Assembly (NCBI RefSeq): GCF_002234915.1
Contig: NZ_NEWD01000022.1
Coordinates: 1-58,193, forward strand
Direction of reading: 5' to 3'
DNA: 58,193 nt
DNA from: Bifidobacterium vansinderenii
GTDB lineage: Bacteria > Actinomycetota > Actinomycetes > Actinomycetales > Bifidobacteriaceae
Position numbers and translations under genes: made by a program. This document shows positions 16,263-27,999 of the stretch, one piece after another (the stretch's first letter is position 1; the number at the start of each line of letters is the position of its first letter). The notes under the pieces are model-generated. The model was given only the letters and a program-made list of their open reading frames with translations, ran no database searches and was not told where the DNA came from.

Positions 16263-16489
16263 GACGGTCCTAGCTCCTTGTCTGTCTGTGATTGCATTAC
16301 ACATTAACCCGACTGCCTGACGGTCCTTTGGCGTTTGCCCGGATGTTTACATTTTTATGGGCCGATTGCCGGTCAGGGTGGCATGATGCCCCCTACCTGC
16401 GCCATAGTCGATTCAGACGTGCGCTATTCCGTTGCAAACGTGCGATTCTGGGAGTGCGCAGTGACCCTCCAGTAAGTACGCTGAAAATT

Positions 16490-17216
16490 ATGAATGTTTT
16501 GCGAATCGACGTATATGAGGAAGACCGTACGGATGCCGGGCATCTCGCCGATGCGTTCCGGCATGCGGCGCTTGGTCGGTCCGTGACTCTTTCGATTACC
16601 GTGCATACACGTGCGGGAGAACTCATGGAGTCGATCGAGGAACATGGTTCCGATCTGGTGATACTGAGCATTCGCAAGAACAGCAAGCAGCTGGATGGCT
16701 TGACCGTGGCGCAGCAGCTGCGGCGGTGGGACGTGAAACTGCCGCTCGCCTTCGTTTCCGACTGCAGCGACTATGCGATTCACGGATACAGCGTGCAGGC
16801 GCTGAATTTTCTGGTCAAACCAGTCAAGGTTGCCGATGCGGCGCAGCTGCTGGGCATGGTGCTTGACTCCGGGCGCCATCATTCGGCCGCGATCACGGTG
16901 GTTTCGGAACGCGTGACGCTACGTGTGCCCGTGGCCAGCATCCTCTACGCAGAGTCGAAACGCAATCGGATCGTCATTCATACCTCCAATCAGGATATTC
17001 CGACATATATGCCGCTCTCTCGGCTTGAAGCCTCAGGGGGGGGGATTGCTTCGATGTCATCGGAGCTACTTGGTTAATCCGATGCATGTCGCCGAAATCG
17101 TTGACTGCGTATTCCTGCTTGACGACGGCAGTACCGTGCCGATCCGCATCAATGGCAAATCCGAAGTCGTGGCTGAATATCAGCGGTATATGAAACAGAC
17201 CGTGAAATATCGATAA
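16490..17216 (+). pseudogene. LytTR response regulator, frameshifted at a G9 tract
   Basis: Two overlapping frames together encode a LytR/AgrA-type regulator. Frame one (from 16490, MNVLRIDVYEED) holds a receiver domain (about residues 1-125) and the start of a LytTR DNA-binding domain. It runs into nine Gs at 17036-17044 and stops at 17077. The rest of the LytTR domain (LLRCHRSYLVNP, VPIRINGKSEVV) continues in the other frame to 17216. Eight Gs would join them into about 241 residues. The receiver is also odd: the phosphoacceptor Asp is Ser60 (VILSIRKN). No histidine kinase is nearby. It may be a pseudogene, a sequencing error, or a phase-variable gene. Confidence 0.8.
17036..17044 (+). repeat. 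G9 homopolymer at the regulator frameshift
   Basis: Nine consecutive Gs interrupt the LytTR coding frame between its LEAS and LLRCHRS segments. A tract of eight Gs restores the frame. Such tracts slip during replication and transcription. Confidence 0.9.
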
Positions 17217-17245
17217 ACCGTGTGCGGCCGGCATCGCCTGATCGG

Positions 17246-17288
17246 GCGCACACATGCACGTGCATACACACGCGTACACGTACATATA
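17246..17288. other. 43-bp perfect purine-pyrimidine alternation (Z-DNA-prone)
   Basis: Every base from 17246 to 17288 alternates purine and pyrimidine, mixing GC, CA/TG and TA steps, and after one break the pattern resumes at 17290-17298. Such tracts favour left-handed Z-DNA under negative supercoiling. It lies in the spacer (17217-17408) between the regulator and the first membrane-protein gene. Confidence 0.85.
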
Positions 17289-17408
17289 GATGCGCGCAAC
17301 GTTGGAATAGGAAGGTGCATGCGGCGGCGTGTTCGGCTGGATGGAGCATAGACAGTTCCGGACAATGAAACCGTACCCGTACATGAGAGAGAAAGGTTCG
17401 GTATCGTC

Positions 17409-17840
17409 ATGGTCAAGCGTCGCTATAACAAGTTCGTCGCGTTTTGCTTCTTCTATAGCATGGTCGCGGCGGTTATGAGCATCGTATACATCTTCATCGG
17501 TGAGGAATCAAACCGAGCGGTCGTCGGTCTGCTGGGTTGCATCGGCTGCCTCGCCATAACGGTCCTTTGCTTCCTGTGGGTGAAAGTCCGTACGCCTGCG
17601 GATGAGCTCGGGCGTACGCTCTTCCGCTGCTGGATGCAGGGATTGCTCGTTACGGTGAAGATCTGCCTGTATGTGAGCATCATCGGAATCTTCCTGGGAG
17701 CTAGGGGCATCGGCACCGACAAGTACAGCGGTGAGGTCATCTACGACGAAAGCACCGGACAGGCGCGAGATGCAAAGACTGGTCGTGTCGTACACGGTGA
17801 CATCGTGGACCAGTACACCGGCAACACCCGCCACGTGTGA
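17409..17840 (+). CDS. small membrane protein, function unknown
   Basis: This 143-residue protein starts at MVKRRYNKF, with AGAAAGG upstream at a somewhat long spacing. Three hydrophobic segments (about residues 9-31, 38-57 and 77-98) are followed by a polar tail of about 45 residues (ARGIGTDKYSGEVIYDES...). The tail reads like short repeats with YSGEVIYDE and DIVDQYTGN. No family is recognised. It follows the LytTR regulator and precedes another small membrane protein in the same direction. Small membrane proteins often partner LytTR regulators, so a functional link is possible but unproven. Confidence 0.7.
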   Translation: MVKRRYNKFVAFCFFYSMVAAVMSIVYIFIGEESNRAVVGLLGCIGCLAITVLCFLWVKVRTPADELGRTLFRCWMQGLLVTVKICLYVSIIGIFLGARGIGTDKYSGEVIYDESTGQARDAKTGRVVHGDIVDQYTGNTRHV

Positions 17841-17908
17841 GTCGTTCCTACGCCGCGTAGCCGTTCTTATATGACAAACCGTTGCGGGGAGAAGAGTAGG
17901 GAGAAGAT

Positions 17909-18391
17909 ATGGCGCGATATGTATTCGTAAAGGAAGAAGAAGATGACGTCCTTGGCCTGGTGTTGGTTTGCGGGGGCGTGCTGGCACTGATCCTGGCCGC
18001 GGTGGTGTTCCTGTTCCAGAAACTGCTGTTGGGCTTGGTGGTGCTCGTCTGGATCGCCGTGCTGCTGCTTCCGGTCAATCTGCTGGCCAATCTGTTCATG
18101 AGACTTCTGGAGCCCAATGCGGGCATGAGCGGCGCCGGTAACTATCTGATATGGCTTATGTATCTGCTGATCGTGTCTCCGGCGCTGCTGATCATCATTC
18201 CGATTCTGGCGTGGGCGTTCACCTCGTTGTGGTGGGATTCGTGGGGACCGTTCTTTACCACGTTCACGGATCTGCCGGTGCGATTCCTAGGGTTGTTCAA
18301 CGACGACTGGGCGGAATGGTTCCGCGGATGCAACCAGTGGGTGTATCGGCAGAGCATCTATAGCTTCGAAGACGCCCTTAATAGTTTGTAG
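17909..18391 (+). CDS. small polytopic membrane protein, function unknown
   Basis: This 160-residue protein starts at MARYVFVKEEEDD, with GGGAGAAG 4 bases upstream. A short acidic N-terminus precedes hydrophobic segments at about residues 15-38, 40-66 and 78-108. The C-terminal 50 residues are rich in Trp and Phe (WWDSWGPFF, DDWAEWFRGCNQW). No family is recognised. It is 68 bases after the preceding membrane-protein gene and is followed by a strong terminator, so the two are probably co-transcribed. Confidence 0.7.
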   Translation: MARYVFVKEEEDDVLGLVLVCGGVLALILAAVVFLFQKLLLGLVVLVWIAVLLLPVNLLANLFMRLLEPNAGMSGAGNYLIWLMYLLIVSPALLIIIPILAWAFTSLWWDSWGPFFTTFTDLPVRFLGLFNDDWAEWFRGCNQWVYRQSIYSFEDALNSL

Positions 18392-18460
18392 GTTGGCGTG
18401 AGGCTGTAGCGAGTCTGTAGTGGTTTGTACGTAGCGTTTTTTGAGCGCTTCCTCACACGA

Positions 18461-18515
18461 CCGCACCTCGATTTAGGTCGGAGAAAGTCCGATGTAAATC
18501 AAGGTGCGGTTTTGT
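18461..18515 (+). terminator. Rho-independent terminator
   Basis: CCGCACCTCGATTTA (18461-18475) pairs at 14 of 15 positions with TAAATCAAGGTGCGG (18495-18509). A small inner hairpin TCGGA/TCCGA lies between, and TTTTGTT follows. It ends the two-gene membrane-protein unit. Confidence 0.88.
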
Positions 18516-18539
18516 TATGTGGGCTGGGTAAGGGTAGGC

Positions 18540-18577
18540 AAAAAAAGAAGTGGCTCCTCTCGGAGGAGAGGAGCCAC
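18540..18577 (-). terminator. Rho-independent terminator of the RCC1 gene
   Basis: GTGGCTCCTCTC (18550-18561) pairs perfectly with GAGAGGAGCCAC (18566-18577) across a 4-base loop. On the minus strand it is followed by a run of T (A7 at 18540-18546). It lies 16 bases after the stop of the surface-protein gene. Confidence 0.92.
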
Positions 18578-18592
18578 GGGGTTGGTTAGTGG

Positions 18593-21500
18593 TTAGTGGT
18601 TGGTGCGGCGTTGACGGAGGGTGACGACGCCGGCGATGGTCAGGCAGGTCAGGAGCGTGACGAGGGCGAGGATCGGGGTGCCGGTTCTGGCGAGTTTCCT
18701 AATCCTGTTCGCAGTCGCGTTCGTGTTGGCCTTGGACTTGGCGTTGTCCTGCTTCTGGCCGTTGGCGTTGGCGGAGTTGCCGTTGGTGCCGTTGGTGGTG
18801 CCGGTTCCGTTGTTGTTGGCGGTGTGGTCGCCATCGTTCTTGGAATCGTTGCCGCCGTTGTTGTCTCCGGGCTTATTGTCGCCGGGGTTGTCGGTGTTGC
18901 CGTTATCGTCCTTGCCGTTATCGCCGCCGTTGTCGCCGCTGCGGGCGATGACGGTCTCGTAGACGCCGTCGCCGTCCTTGTCGATCAGGGCTTGGATCTG
19001 GCTGCCGTCCTGCTTGATCTGCACGGCCTTGGCGTCGGTGTCGATGGTCAGCGCCTTCTTGTCGCTGATGTTGGACGCCTCAACCTTGACGTTGTGGAGA
19101 TTGTCGGCGGTGAGGATGTAGCCGATGTCCTTGGCGCGGGCGAGCTGGACGTTGCCGCCGTTGCTGCCGCTGGCCTGATAGGTGTACAGGCGGTCCTTGT
19201 CGGCGTTGTCGGTTGCCGCGAGCGTCCAATCGCCGTTGCTGGCGTTGATACGTGCGTTGGCATCCTTGGTGAAGGTGACGCTGCCGGCGTTGGTGACGTT
19301 GGCAGTCAGATACCGGTTGCCGTTGCTCAGGGAGTAGTTCACGGTCTCGGCCTTGGACGTCAGCGTGTAGTCCCCGCCATCGGACGGCAGAACGATGTTC
19401 TGGCCGCTCTGACCGTCACCATCCGGGTCGGGAACCAGACTGATGCCAGACGCCTTGCCCAGCGCCAGATCGCTGTAGGACCAGCTGCCCGCGGAACCGA
19501 CAGAGAGATTCAGACCGTGGGCCGTCTTATCGTCGGTATGTAGGACTATGCCGTTGCTATCCGTGATTCCACGGCCGGTTAGCGTGTCAAGTGATTGCGC
19601 CACGATTTTTGCGCCAAGTTCCTTTGAAGCTGCCGCCGTGCCAGGCTTGGATGTGTTCATGGTCGGGTAATCCCAGTATCCGGTCTCCGTATCGACATAG
19701 AGATACTGCGCGTCGTGGCACGTGAGGCTGGGGTGGAAACCTGTGGGGCAGTTGGGATCATAGACGCGGACCCTCTTGGTGTAAGTGCGGTTGTTGATGG
19801 TCCATTTGCCGTTAGTTTCAGCTCCAATACCCACGATTTCATGCGAGCTGCCCGTGTTCAAATCAGGTTCGTTGTTGTTGCCCATGTGGTAGTAGGCGAG
19901 AAGGATGCCGAAGGGTTCCCCTCCGGACTCAGCGGTTTCCGCCATGCTCCATAAGTTGGGCATCTGGTTAGGGGTTCCATAGTCCGTGTTCCAACCCGCG
20001 ACCACACTCGGCAGGTACTTGAGGAGATGGTAGTAGGAGATTTCGGGGAATGCGTTTGCCTCCTTGACGTCATGTGTGGCCTTGGCGTTGCCCTGCAGAT
20101 ACTGCACCTGCGTCTGGCCCGTGTAGATGAGCATGGAGAGCACGGACATGCCATAGCACAGTCCACCGCCGTTATTCTCCTTCTCGTACGCATCTCGTAG
20201 CACTTTGCCCGTGGCCGGGTTCTTTTGCTCGAGAGCGTCTAGGCGCTGCGACTGCTCCTTTTCTAATTTCATCTTCTTGTCGGGATTCGCGAACTGCCAT
20301 CCATCCCGCTCGACAAGGAAGCCGCCGCCGGCGACGGTGACCTCCAGCTTGGCGGAGATTTTGGTGCTGCCGTTGTCCTTGAGGGTGGCGGTGATCGTGG
20401 TTTTGCCGTTGGTCTTGGCTGTCACCTTGCCTTCGGCATCCACGGTTGCGATGTCGGTGTCCGAGGACTTCCATTCGAGTCGTTCGTTGTTCACCGGGGA
20501 GCCGGACATCGAAGCGGTCAGCGTCACGGACTGGTCCCTCTTCAATGACAGCTTGCCATCCTGAACGCCATCGCCGGTGATCTGAAGCTCGTTATAGACG
20601 GTGACTTCAATGCTGGCGGTTACTTTCGGGTTGGACACTGATGTGGCGGTGATCGTGGTCTTGCCGGGCTTGACGGCGGTGACCTTGCCGCCCTTGTTCG
20701 ATACGGTAGCGACGCTCTCATCGGAGGACGTCCAGCGTACCGACTTATCGGTGGCGTTGGTGGGGGAGACAGTGGCGGTCAGCTCGACCGATTTATCGAC
20801 GTCCAGACTCCGCTTGCCATCCTTCACTCCGTCGCCGGAAATCTTGATCGAGGAAACGGGAACGCCCGTGTCCGGCGCATCCACCGTCACGCCCTTGATC
20901 TGAATAGGCTTTTCGGACTGCCAATCGGTTTCTCCGAAATTACCCCAGGCCCAGAGGGAACCGTCGTTCTTGACCGCAATCGTGTAGGCCATACGATCGT
21001 AGGCAGCGGCATAATCTGAGCCGCCTACGTCAACGGTAGTCACATTATTGAAATTGCTGCCGTCCGCGTCTTTAGCAACGTGATGGGGGGTCGTACTCTT
21101 GGTGCAATCACCCCACTCATATACCGTACCGGTTGTTGTCGTCAATGCTACGCGGCGACCATCTGCGTTTATGGACCGTACCGGAATGGACTTATCTGCA
21201 GATTTAATGCTCATCCTAGTAGGAGTCTTGATCAGATCCAGCTCGTTCGTATCGAGAATATGATCGCTATTCTGTCCCCATTCCCAAAGATTATCGCTCT
21301 CATCCTGCGCGTAGAAAGCGCCGGTTCCTGCAGTGATGGACGTGATATTGGTCAGATTTCGCACTTGCTTGGGTTCGGCCACTACGGAGTTGGTTTCGTC
21401 ATCCGTGCCGAGCAGTCCACGATCGTCGCGCGGATACACGCCATCGGTGTTCTTCTCGAAACCGTTGAATCCCCAGGCCCAGACAGTGCCGTCGGACTTG

Positions 21501-23506
21501 ACGCCAAAAGTCTCGTTCCAGCCGACGTCAAAGGATGTGGTTGCGATGGACTTTACGTTATCGAGGTTCTGTACCTGCTGCGGTGAGGTCACCCAGTTGG
21601 AGGAGCCGTCCTTCTTGATTCCCAGCAGGTTCTGAATGGGATGTGAGTTCGTACTGGTGCCGTTGAGACCCCATGCCCAGACCGTGCCGTCGGACTTGAG
21701 TGCGAATACGGCATGCCCGTCAGCGCTGATGGACTTGACTTTGGTCAGTCCTTTCACCTGTTCCGGGGTCGACACCTGTGCCTGGGATGAACCAGTGCCG
21801 AGGATACCGACGGCTTTGTCTCCGGCATAGCGGTCGTCTCCGGTGTTGTTGCCCCATGCCCAGACCGTGCCGTCGGACTTCACCGCGAATGATTGGTCAT
21901 CATTGGCTGCAACCGAGATCACGTCGGACAGCCCGCGTACCGTGACCGGAGTCATTGGTGTCTGGGGGTCCGTGGTGGTGCCGTTGCCCAATTGGCCGCT
22001 GTTGTTCTTGCCCATGGCGACGACGCCGTTCTTCTGGACGGCGAGTATATGGTTACGACCGGTTGCGATATATGAGGAGGCCGTCTTCGCTGAATTGGTA
22101 TTGCCGCTGTTACCGGGCTTGTTGTCGGAGTCGTCGATATTCGGCGCTTCCACCGTTACGCCCTTGATCTTGGTGGGGGCGGTGGTGGTGAACTTTACCT
22201 TGTTGCCGAGTTCGCCATGCAGCCAGACTGAACCGTCGGCCTTCACCGCGAGGTAATAGTCGTTGCCGCTGACCGTGGCGGACACCACCTTGGTGAAGTC
22301 CTCGCCATCAGCATCCTTGTCGATCTTGGTCGTGGCGACCTTGGAATCCGAACCCTTGATGCGTTCGGACAGCGTGCCGTCATTGTGCACGATCACGGTG
22401 TGTCGGCCGTCCACGGCAAGAACCTTGGCATTGCTCAACGTCACCTTTGCCGGAGTGGACAGCATATCGGCATCGTTCTCGATGATGTGATCGTTGTTGC
22501 GGCCCCACGCATAGGTCGTGGTGCTCTTATTGGCCGCGTAGAACTGGCCGGAGCCGGCGGCGATGGAGGTGATGTTGCTCAGGGACTTCACCTGCTTGGC
22601 GTATTCGATGGGGCCGTCTTCGCTGCCGGTGCCCAACAGTCCCTGATCGTCATACGGATATACGCCGTTCCAGCCCTTGAAACGGCCGTTGAATCCCCAT
22701 GACCATACCGTGCCGTCGGACTTGAGGGCAAGAGTCTCGTTGACGCCAGCCTCACTGTCCACGGCCGTGGCGACCGCGGTGATGTCCGTGATCGGGGTGC
22801 CGTCGGTGAGATTCGTCACGACCTGCTGCGGGGTGGTAATCCAATTGGAGAACGTCGGTCCGTAGCCGTCGCGTTTGACGCTCAGCCAGCCGACCCATGA
22901 CGGTCCCTGGGCAACGCCATCCTGACCCCAAGCCCACAGCGTGCCGTCCTTCTTGACCGCGAACGCCGAGTTACCTGCGGCGCTGATGGACTGAATGTCG
23001 GAGAGTCCCTTGACCTGCTGCGGGGTGGTCACCGTGTCTTCGGAGGAACCGGTGCCGAGCGTGCCGGCAGTGTCGTGACCAACATACGGATCGGCTCCCT
23101 TGTTCTTGCCCCACGCCCAGACGGTGCCGTCCTTCTTGACCGCGAACGACTGATCCTGGTCGGCGGCCACGGCAACCACATCGGACAGGCCGGAGACCTT
23201 GGTCGCCTGATACATCGAATCATTGAGATTGCCGGTGCCCAGCTGTCCGCTGGAATTGTCGCCCAACGCGACGACCGTGCCGTCCTTCTGCACGGCAAGC
23301 ATATGCGTGGGGCCTGCGGCAACGCGGTTCGCCACGTTCTTGAAGGCCGAGTCAGAGCTGATCGTCTGTTCGGCCGATGCGGTGGTTGCTGTGGCGGCGG
23401 TGCCGGCTACGGCGAGTGCGGTGACCATGGCTCCGGTAATGGCCATGGCCCATGTTTTTCGTAATGACCGGCCGGCTGTCGTGAGTCGGTCTTGTAGTCC
23501 GCTCAT
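18593..23506 (-). CDS. giant RCC1-repeat surface protein with peptidase-like domain
   Basis: This 1,637-residue cell-wall protein starts at MSGLQDRLTT, which has GGAAGGA about 9 bases upstream. A signal peptide ends near TASAEQ. Two blocks of RCC1-type repeats (about residues 55-450 and 475-870; recurring KSDGTVWAWG) should form beta-propellers. Two Big2 immunoglobulin-like domains follow (about 880-1060). Residues about 1100-1280 resemble a papain-like cysteine peptidase, with Cys1117 (GGLCYGMS), His1222 (SSHEIVGIG) and Asp1250 (RVYDPN). A Gly/Asn/Asp-rich spacer leads to LARTG (1605-1609), a membrane segment and RQRR, a sortase signal. Adhesion or host-protein processing is a reasonable guess. 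Confidence 0.85.
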   Translation of the reverse strand: MSGLQDRLTTAGRSLRKTWAMAITGAMVTALAVAGTAATATTASAEQTISSDSAFKNVANRVAAGPTHMLAVQKDGTVVALGDNSSGQLGTGNLNDSMYQATKVSGLSDVVAVAADQDQSFAVKKDGTVWAWGKNKGADPYVGHDTAGTLGTGSSEDTVTTPQQVKGLSDIQSISAAGNSAFAVKKDGTLWAWGQDGVAQGPSWVGWLSVKRDGYGPTFSNWITTPQQVVTNLTDGTPITDITAVATAVDSEAGVNETLALKSDGTVWSWGFNGRFKGWNGVYPYDDQGLLGTGSEDGPIEYAKQVKSLSNITSIAAGSGQFYAANKSTTTYAWGRNNDHIIENDADMLSTPAKVTLSNAKVLAVDGRHTVIVHNDGTLSERIKGSDSKVATTKIDKDADGEDFTKVVSATVSGNDYYLAVKADGSVWLHGELGNKVKFTTTAPTKIKGVTVEAPNIDDSDNKPGNSGNTNSAKTASSYIATGRNHILAVQKNGVVAMGKNNSGQLGNGTTTDPQTPMTPVTVRGLSDVISVAANDDQSFAVKSDGTVWAWGNNTGDDRYAGDKAVGILGTGSSQAQVSTPEQVKGLTKVKSISADGHAVFALKSDGTVWAWGLNGTSTNSHPIQNLLGIKKDGSSNWVTSPQQVQNLDNVKSIATTSFDVGWNETFGVKSDGTVWAWGFNGFEKNTDGVYPRDDRGLLGTDDETNSVVAEPKQVRNLTNITSITAGTGAFYAQDESDNLWEWGQNSDHILDTNELDLIKTPTRMSIKSADKSIPVRSINADGRRVALTTTTGTVYEWGDCTKSTTPHHVAKDADGSNFNNVTTVDVGGSDYAAAYDRMAYTIAVKNDGSLWAWGNFGETDWQSEKPIQIKGVTVDAPDTGVPVSSIKISGDGVKDGKRSLDVDKSVELTATVSPTNATDKSVRWTSSDESVATVSNKGGKVTAVKPGKTTITATSVSNPKVTASIEVTVYNELQITGDGVQDGKLSLKRDQSVTLTASMSGSPVNNERLEWKSSDTDIATVDAEGKVTAKTNGKTTITATLKDNGSTKISAKLEVTVAGGGFLVERDGWQFANPDKKMKLEKEQSQRLDALEQKNPATGKVLRDAYEKENNGGGLCYGMSVLSMLIYTGQTQVQYLQGNAKATHDVKEANAFPEISYYHLLKYLPSVVAGWNTDYGTPNQMPNLWSMAETAESGGEPFGILLAYYHMGNNNEPDLNTGSSHEIVGIGAETNGKWTINNRTYTKRVRVYDPNCPTGFHPSLTCHDAQYLYVDTETGYWDYPTMNTSKPGTAAASKELGAKIVAQSLDTLTGRGITDSNGIVLHTDDKTAHGLNLSVGSAGSWSYSDLALGKASGISLVPDPDGDGQSGQNIVLPSDGGDYTLTSKAETVNYSLSNGNRYLTANVTNAGSVTFTKDANARINASNGDWTLAATDNADKDRLYTYQASGSNGGNVQLARAKDIGYILTADNLHNVKVEASNISDKKALTIDTDAKAVQIKQDGSQIQALIDKDGDGVYETVIARSGDNGGDNGKDDNGNTDNPGDNKPGDNNGGNDSKNDGDHTANNNGTGTTNGTNGNSANANGQKQDNAKSKANTNATANRIRKLARTGTPILALVTLLTCLTIAGVVTLRQRRTNH

Positions 23507-23696
23507 GGGTGAATCCTTCCGTGGGGGTTCGTCTTGCGGCTGCGTCATTGGCGGCGTTTCCGCAAGGTTTGATACTCTTCCACGATCAGGATTCCACTTT
23601 GGTGGCGCGCCGGTTTTGCCACACGCCGGTGGGACGTACGACGTTATGCAAACGTGTGGGAAGACACGGCGAACATGGCGGTTCTGCAACGATATC

Positions 23697-23728
23697 GGGT
23701 GTTCTCACTCGTTCGGAGGGGAACACCC
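23697..23728 (-). terminator. possible terminator after ispE
   Basis: GGGTGTTC (23697-23704) pairs with GAACACCC (23721-23728) downstream of ispE on the minus strand. There is no T-run. It may separate ispE from the surface-protein gene. Confidence 0.35.
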
Positions 23729-23764
23729 GGGGTGTATGGGAACAGGCGCGCAGTGAATCCGAAA

Positions 23765-24775
23765 CTAGGAGATGATGGGCGTTACCGGGGCGGTGGTCTC
23801 GAAGAGGCGGTCGACATGACGGCCGTTGATCCAGGCGCGGCAGACGGCGGCGGACACGGTCTCGTCGGGCACGCAGGCCACCACGGACGGGCCGGAGCCA
23901 GAGACAAACGCGGCGGTGGCGCCAGCCTCCAACGCGGCGCGGATGGCCTCGCCGGAACGCGGATGCAGAGTGACGGCGGCGTTCTGCAGATCGTTGGCCG
24001 TGAATCCCATGCCGCCGGCGCTCGCGGCGGAGTCCGTGCTCGTTCCCGCGCCGATCGCGTCGAACATGCGGTAGACGTCGGGCGTGCTCAGCTGCGTGTT
24101 GTATGCGCCCACGACCATGCATCCGAGCATGCCGGGCAGAATGTCGGGATGGCTGGCGTCCACGGTTTCGATGACCTCGCCGTAGCCGGTGCCGTGCGCG
24201 AGTCCGCCGGCAAGGCAGAACGGCATGTCCGCGCCGAGTTTCGCGGCGATCGGGCGCAGACGCTCGACCGGCCAGTTCAGACCCCACAGGCGGTTCAGCG
24301 CGAGCAGCGTGCCCGCAGCGTCGCTGGAGCCCCCGCCGAGACCGGCGCCCACGGGAATGCGCTTCTCCAGCGTGATACCCACGTCGGTGGACTGACCGGC
24401 GGCCTCGGCGAGCGCGAACAGAGCCATGACGGCGTGATTGCGACGCATGTCGGCATGATCGAGCGCCAGATCGCCCAGATGGCTGCCGGCGAGCTCAAGG
24501 CTGAACCCGGTGCCGGGCGCCTTGCGCGTGACGGTGACCGTGTCGTAGATGCCCACGCCGCAGTAGATGGTGTCGAGCCGGTGCCGGCCGCCCCATTCGG
24601 CGCGGGATTCGCCCACGCGCAGGGTGAGGTTGGTCTTGGCCGGGCATTCCACGCGCACGGAGTTCACCGGTTCCGCGGAACCGGATTCGGGCGACCGCGC
24701 GGGAACCACCGCCGGCGTGGGCGTGCCCGCCGATTCGGTGGAATCAACGCTGTTCATGATGCTGGGTGCGGTCAT
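23765..24775 (-). CDS. ispE: 4-diphosphocytidyl-2-C-methyl-D-erythritol kinase
   Basis: This 336-residue GHMP kinase phosphorylates 4-diphosphocytidyl-methylerythritol in the MEP route to isoprenoids. The ATP-binding glycine-rich motif PVGAGLGGGSSDAAG is central. The N-terminal substrate region (ECPAKTNLTLRVG) and the C-terminal SGSGPSVVA motif are present. The first 35 residues form a low-complexity extension. Its ATG overlaps the rsmA stop by one base (TGATG), so the pair is translationally coupled. The rsmA-ispE arrangement is common in actinobacteria. Confidence 0.95.
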   Translation of the reverse strand: MTAPSIMNSVDSTESAGTPTPAVVPARSPESGSAEPVNSVRVECPAKTNLTLRVGESRAEWGGRHRLDTIYCGVGIYDTVTVTRKAPGTGFSLELAGSHLGDLALDHADMRRNHAVMALFALAEAAGQSTDVGITLEKRIPVGAGLGGGSSDAAGTLLALNRLWGLNWPVERLRPIAAKLGADMPFCLAGGLAHGTGYGEVIETVDASHPDILPGMLGCMVVGAYNTQLSTPDVYRMFDAIGAGTSTDSAASAGGMGFTANDLQNAAVTLHPRSGEAIRAALEAGATAAFVSGSGPSVVACVPDETVSAAVCRAWINGRHVDRLFETTAPVTPIIS

Positions 24776-27738: not shown

Positions 27739-27745
27739 GGTTGGT

Positions 27746-27930
27746 TGATCACCTCATCCGTCAGCCTTCGGCTGCCACCTTCCCCTCAAGGGGAAGGCAG
27801 GTTTTCCTAATAATCCTCCCCCCCCCAGATACGAAAAAGGCCTTCCGAGGCAAGGGGAAGGCAGGTTTTTCTAATAATCCTTCCCCTCGAGGGGAAGGTG
27901 TCGGCGCCAGCCGACGGATGAGGTGGCCGA
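27746..27930. repeat. composite palindromic repeat, copy 1
   Basis: Two oppositely oriented units, about 27748-27801 and 27879-27928, each join a palindrome (TTCCCCTCAAGGGGAA or its CTCGAGG variant) to a hairpin and the words CACCTCATCCG or CGGATGAGGTG. A C9 run lies between them (27818-27826). The same composite occurs near 41.7 and 49.3 kb. It is an interspersed intergenic repeat rather than a gene. Confidence 0.85.
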
Positions 27931-27999
27931 CCGGGATGACAGAAATGACAGGATGGGGAACAGGGGAATAGAAAAGTCGACGAATGATAAAAGAAAAAG

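Follow-up and report, generated by a model that had tools for sequence, protein, structure and literature searches.

The LytTR-type regulator gene encoded in the window, the 58,193-nucleotide stretch of Bifidobacterium vansinderenii DNA analyzed here (contig C15 of a 3.11-Mb draft genome in 68 contigs), is split by a run of nine guanines inside its DNA-binding domain. The second half of the domain is well conserved past the run, long G tracts form a distinct class in this genome, the lengths of other such tracts differ from those in a sister genome, and the gene lies on a genomic island together with two membrane proteins and a surface protein. The interpretation that we favor, with moderate confidence, is a slipped-strand ON/OFF switch of a phosphorylation-independent regulator that is OFF as sequenced.

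A LytTR domain divided at a G9 tract

The regulator in its frame as sequenced (16490..17077, forward strand; 195 aa) runs from an ATG at 16490 through a receiver-like domain and the first part of a LytTR domain into the G9 tract (17036-17044, forward strand), the point where the frame changes, and is closed by a stop 33 bases past the tract, ending at 17077. The remainder of the LytTR domain runs on in a shifted frame (17043..17216, forward strand) with no stop before its natural end. In a search of the locus, both parts exceeded the Pfam cut-off for LytTR (PF04397; 22.6 bits), the part before the tract covering model positions 4-41 (23.8 bits) and the part past it (17043-17213) positions 48-85 (24.1 bits), and the gene is assigned to the LytTR family. 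In a whole-genome search, the second part scored 22.2 bits alone and 22.7 bits with its frame neighbors, and these two parts were the only LytTR matches at E ≤ 0.001. A preliminary description of this DNA had held that the DNA-binding domain is cut exactly at nine Gs within 17032-17216 and that eight Gs would restore it; Pfam's recognition of both halves around the tract agrees with the first point, and the frame arithmetic for G8 is correct. Two features of G-tract phase-variable genes are therefore present, namely a homopolymer inside the coding sequence that sets the frame and two parts that on either side of the break can still be recognized as a single domain. Elsewhere in the gene (16490-17216) there is no G/C run of at least 4 and no A/T run of at least 5.

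Regulator matches at E ≤ 1e-6 were found in 103 of 189 family genomes, one per species, the best reaching 34% in the family (genome G081) and 26% in the genus (G003). The homologue survey comprised 90 loci among the matches listed (30 came with the searches and 60 were fetched from the upper part of the list, where about 10 rows were skipped by eye). The closest homologue among them, L044 of G081, has an open reading frame at this place and a GHKL histidine kinase beside it. Against L044, the LytTR part past the tract is the best conserved segment of the regulator (27/53 identical residues, compared with 21/47 in the part before the tract and 39/128 in the receiver), in keeping with the earlier claim that the sequence beyond the break is still well conserved LytTR. 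The two other frames of the post-tract DNA gave local alignments of 5/17 and 4/18 only, and the tract itself aligns to a linker before RCHRSYLVN, a stretch common to the two proteins. That the second part is the best conserved implies that it was constrained until recently, or still is at times.

This conservation bears on a rival explanation, a recent pseudogene, in which a single slippage event disabled the regulator of a recently acquired island, the tract would mark only the site of the damage, and the gene is now decaying. A decaying gene is not where one would look for a best-conserved segment downstream of the break with no stop before its natural end, nor for a break located at the gene's only long homopolymer when such tracts are in excess across the genome. 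Decay would nevertheless fit the restriction of the gene to a single genome, with no close copy in genome_contigs (where its own or a very near genome was possibly left out) or in viral_contigs, and it would fit the changes in the receiver described below; overall, we regard a pseudogene as unlikely. Comparison with columns conserved across the 90 loci favored neither reading. The window regulator keeps 20/39 conserved columns in the receiver, 8/10 in the first LytTR part and 7/16 in the second, compared with 24/39, 3/10 and 6/16 for L044, 26/39, 6/10 and 9/16 for L067, and 29/39, 8/10 and 16/16 for L061. At 9 of its 16 conserved columns the second part differs from most of the family, and L044 does so at 10 of 16, a point counted against the switch reading.

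The tract has no counterpart among the homologues. In all 90 loci among the matches listed, the reading frame continues for at least 52 residues past the position equivalent to the tract, with no G/C run of at least 7 and no break there. The position of the tract is thus peculiar to this gene among the loci examined, and the switch itself is not conserved, a second point counted against it. Long C runs near the 3′ end of the open reading frame were seen in 2/90 loci (C10 in L044 and C9 in L186); that of L044 (L044:1286-1295) lies past the LytTR domain, near the end of a convergent kinase gene. Upstream of LytTR regulator homologues, a C10 lies about 71 nt away in L144 and a C7 about 128 nt away in L184, distances that are approximate because the homologue gene starts are.

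Long G tracts in this genome and in its relatives

Across the whole genome there are 5 G/C runs of exactly 7, 5 of 8 and 27 of at least 9 (14 of 9, 8 of 10, 3 of 11, 1 of 12 and 1 of 14). A 300-kb background contained 1186, 290, 14 and 0 runs of lengths 4, 5, 6 and 7, respectively; this background was picked with the tract positions already known, contains none of the tracts and is not an independent count. A fourth-order model of it expects about 84 runs of at least 7 and about 2.6 of at least 9 per genome, and a fifth-order extrapolation about 7 and 0.02. The gap in run lengths, together with the excess over expectation, sets the long G tracts apart as a class. G9 is present in all nine genus genomes searched, this one included. 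One of them, G006, had 241 overlapping G9 matches, compared with 13-60 in the other eight, indicating very long G runs there, perhaps an assembly artifact.

The distribution of run lengths also bears on the possibility of an assembly or sequencing error, in which the true tract length would join the two halves and the gene would be intact. The assembly is a draft in 68 contigs, and caution over G-tract lengths in databases is urged in the part of Penno et al. (2022) consulted (PMC9187656). Small errors in short runs, however, would not alone yield five G7 and five G8 runs but 27 of G9 or longer, and even a true error would leave a long slippery tract inside the domain. An error of this kind seems to us rather improbable.

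Protein classes such as SpaA pilins, O-mannosyltransferases, family-2 glycosyltransferases, methyltransferases and Big_2 proteins are often phase-variable. Gene assignment, which covers part of the tracts, placed SpaA pilin, protein O-mannosyltransferase, family-2 glycosyltransferase, EcoRI-type methyltransferase (G8), DUF6020 and Big_2 proteins in or beside them, along with transposase-like HTH proteins, and U32 peptidase and PNTB genes with the tract outside the open reading frame. Finding a long G tract does not by itself prove that a switch has been selected, as several of these tracts fall outside open reading frames or within genes that are transposase- or phage-like. Individual arrangements vary. 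Two loci (L080:1998-3409 and L092:1998-3913) each hold three successive G tracts of 9-11, the first in or just behind a Big_2 open reading frame; the long open reading frames around these tracts are in different frames, and the tracts might therefore act together. A C10 and a G10 on opposite strands (L094:2000-2428) lie just behind an open reading frame matching phage prohead protease and capsid families. The G8 at L075:2000-2007 lies at least 64 bp before the EcoRI-type adenine methyltransferase open reading frame, a possible DNA methylation switch. Within the window, nested inverted repeats at 27743-27932 surround an intergenic C9 (27818-27826) in a MITE-like arrangement, and similar sequence aligns to the sister genome in both orientations.

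Tract lengths were compared with the sister genome G001. The 32 tracts of at least 8 were matched on both flanks among G001 loci with G9 or longer and one further locus (L109), a comparison that misses shorter G001 tracts. Four of the 32 could be matched in this way, and three of the four differ by an indel (11 here vs. 10 in G001, 12 vs. 10, and 14 vs. 9). The fourth, which precedes the signal peptide in a SpaA pilin gene (L084:1996-2004 here, L196:1501-1510 in G001), reads 9 vs. 10 through a substitution at its edge, with equal span. The preliminary description had seen in the regulator tract the signature of slipped-strand phase variation or transcriptional slippage. A slippage-prone tract, conserved sequence past the break, a genome-wide class of such tracts and length differences at three of four matched tracts all fit that signature, which does not distinguish replication slippage from transcriptional slippage. 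No second allele of the regulator tract itself was seen in the genomes compared, one per species, and this was counted against the switch reading.

RNA polymerase could plausibly slip on a run of nine Gs, and transcriptional slippage or ribosomal frameshifting would let a single DNA allele yield both a short and a full-length protein, the short product retaining the receiver domain. No counterpart exists at this place in the 90 homologue loci among the matches listed, and the length differences from the sister species at other tracts are changes in DNA; we hold an explanation at the level of transcription or translation to be improbable.

In Bifidobacterium, replication slippage at G tracts has been described at sortase-dependent pilus loci (Penno et al., 2022; PMC9187656). 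In the part of that study consulted, a B. breve pilus locus annotated as G10 was G9 in about 6.5% of the population, one annotated as G11 was G12 in 59%, tracts of 8-13 were present at pilus loci of five species, and other intragenic and promoter tracts were mentioned, without names, for UCC2003. As at two of the B. breve loci, the tract examined here splits an open reading frame into two frames, and the SpaA pilin of this genome resembles the published B. breve pilus switch in having its tract ahead of the signal peptide (PMC9187656). The cases differ in that slippage was measured at the pilus loci, where the first pilin gene is switched, whereas here the tract is known from sequence alone and lies in the DNA-binding domain of a regulator (PMC9187656). 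By analogy with the longer B. breve tracts, the G9 tract may slip less often than the G10 and G11 loci. A switch in a regulator would place bifidobacterial G-tract slippage, already published for pili, in a new location.

AgrA is a LytTR-type response regulator. In Staphylococcus aureus, phase variation of agrA via homonucleotide repeats is noted in the part of a review consulted (PMC7911514), and agrA is, by analogy, a precedent for switching a response regulator through homopolymer length. According to the same source, the agrA system includes the sensor kinase AgrC and its tracts are probably A/T, as suggested by the survey in that review, whereas the tract here is of G and the island is free of kinases and its regulator of a phosphoacceptor (PMC7911514). 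No report of a phase-variable LytTR regulator in Bifidobacterium was found in the open-licence literature, judged by titles and abstract openings.

An island with a degenerate receiver and no histidine kinase

Beyond the earlier description, the regulator was found to share a genomic island (16354..23714, ends approximate) with both membrane proteins and the surface protein; the island was delimited by blastn, gap size and GC content. The 7.36-kb island had no blastn match in any of seven same-genus relatives (G001, G002, G003, G004, G005, G007 and G008; G006 was left out), while both flanks matched, weakly in G003. The flanking genes are 7464 bp apart here; among 14 further loci, the 10 that could be scored have 54-180 bp between these genes. 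Six of the ten overlap with the blastn relatives, and the two counts are not separate. GC content is 58.1% in the island vs. 64.6 and 64.3% in the flanks. At third positions, the flanking genes have a GC of 0.86-0.90, the island genes other than the regulator 0.74-0.76, and the two regulator parts 0.67 and 0.57. A neighboring LytR_C protein shares 99% identity with its counterpart in Bifidobacterium callimiconis strain 2028B and 90% with the one in B. tissieri. No repeats of at least 8 were found at the island ends in the stretches compared, and nothing reached the Rfam gathering score in 16300-23800.

The receiver domain is recognized by Pfam (Response_reg, 33.2 bits; cut-off 30.2) and is degenerate at sites that the homologues keep. 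The phosphoacceptor Asp60, present in all 90 loci among the matches listed, is Ser here, and Asp11 and Thr90, each kept by 89/90, are Glu and Ser. The protein thus lacks the phosphoacceptor Asp of AgrA/LytR-type response regulators and is probably no ordinary response regulator. No histidine kinase match was found by Pfam among the island proteins at E ≤ 0.1, and with the phosphoacceptor missing as well, the ordinary two-component route is unlikely. These losses are the receiver changes that would fit a pseudogene; they may mean decay, and were counted against the switch reading.

Two small membrane proteins are encoded downstream, the first (17409..17840, forward strand; 143 aa) with three hydrophobic segments by hydropathy and the second (17909..18391, forward strand; 160 aa) with at least two. 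Neither has a Pfam match above cut-off, and weak matches to the first occurred in 2 other genomes among the 189. On the reverse strand follows an LPXTG-type surface protein (18593..23689; up to 1698 aa) with RCC1 and Big_2 repeats (Pfam WD40_RLD, RCC1_2, RCC1 and Big_2), whose C-terminal anchor and signal-like stretch were seen by eye in the translation and whose true start is probably further in than annotated. A 230-aa part of it (19640-20329) without Pfam match has weak matches in two others; two distant relatives share its Cys58 and several further residues, and by eye the part looks like a cysteine peptidase. Its fold model, from three sequences, had a mean pLDDT of 39.8, too poor to search.

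The arrangement recalls the LytTR Regulatory Systems (LRS), in which a LytTR regulator acts through direct repeats, spaced 11-13 bp apart, to activate the operon that encodes it, and is inhibited by a membrane protein (Zou et al., 2018; PMC6193735, in the part consulted). As in LRS, a LytTR regulator lies upstream of small proteins, taken as membrane proteins from hydropathy only, without a kinase or other enzymatic domain, and a direct repeat, a candidate LytTR operator, lies upstream of the regulator (16409..16444, forward strand). Its two copies, of 15 nt each and 80% alike, begin 21 bp from each other, in keeping with a 9 + 12 bp geometry. Unlike the LRS regulators described in the consulted part of that paper, which have no receiver, the regulator here has a degenerate one; the membrane gene starts 192 bp past the regulator, with no sigma-70-type promoter found; and no match to DUF3021 or DUF2154 was found in the membrane proteins (PMC6193735). 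The sigma-70 scan covered 16300-18600. A LytTR half-site pattern matched nowhere in the four intergenic stretches and once in the island as a whole, at 19952. Because a receiver is present and 57 of 1530 background blocks, each of 196 bp, contain comparable repeats, the LRS identity was set aside.

How a switch would act and what it would mean

From these features we infer switching at this locus, DNA binding by the regulator, its targets and a role for the membrane proteins. Slipped-strand mispairing during replication would alter the length of the G9 tract; one phase of three would give a complete LytTR DNA-binding domain (ON), and the two others a protein cut short inside it (OFF), the assembled sequence presumably representing an OFF cell. 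In the ON state, the regulator would bind direct repeats, for which the pair in front of its gene is one possibility, and would set the expression of its island, plausibly of the membrane proteins and the LPXTG-type surface protein. Given a receiver without its phosphoacceptor Asp and an island without a histidine kinase, its activity would probably be set by the neighboring membrane proteins or by the switch alone. The preliminary description had suggested that the adjacent membrane and surface proteins could be the regulator's output; they do share with it one island absent from all seven relatives, and their control by the regulator would be a further step.

A broader and more speculative proposal, to which we give a low probability, is that the island as a whole is a horizontally acquired, self-contained switchable surface module of four genes, in which the phase-variable, phosphorylation-independent LytTR regulator, held by the membrane proteins, would switch the LPXTG-type surface protein. 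More generally, the gap in run lengths, with few G7 and G8 but many runs of G9 or longer, offers an easy means of finding candidate switches in the genome of a bifidobacterium. In the portion of Penno et al. consulted, bifidobacterial slippage was measured at pilus genes, and the candidate described here sits in a regulator (PMC9187656). A switch so placed would flip a gene set at once, and the resulting heterogeneity among colonies would be testable with one amplicon. If the proposed surface module is real, one slippery tract would flip a set of genes in a commensal.
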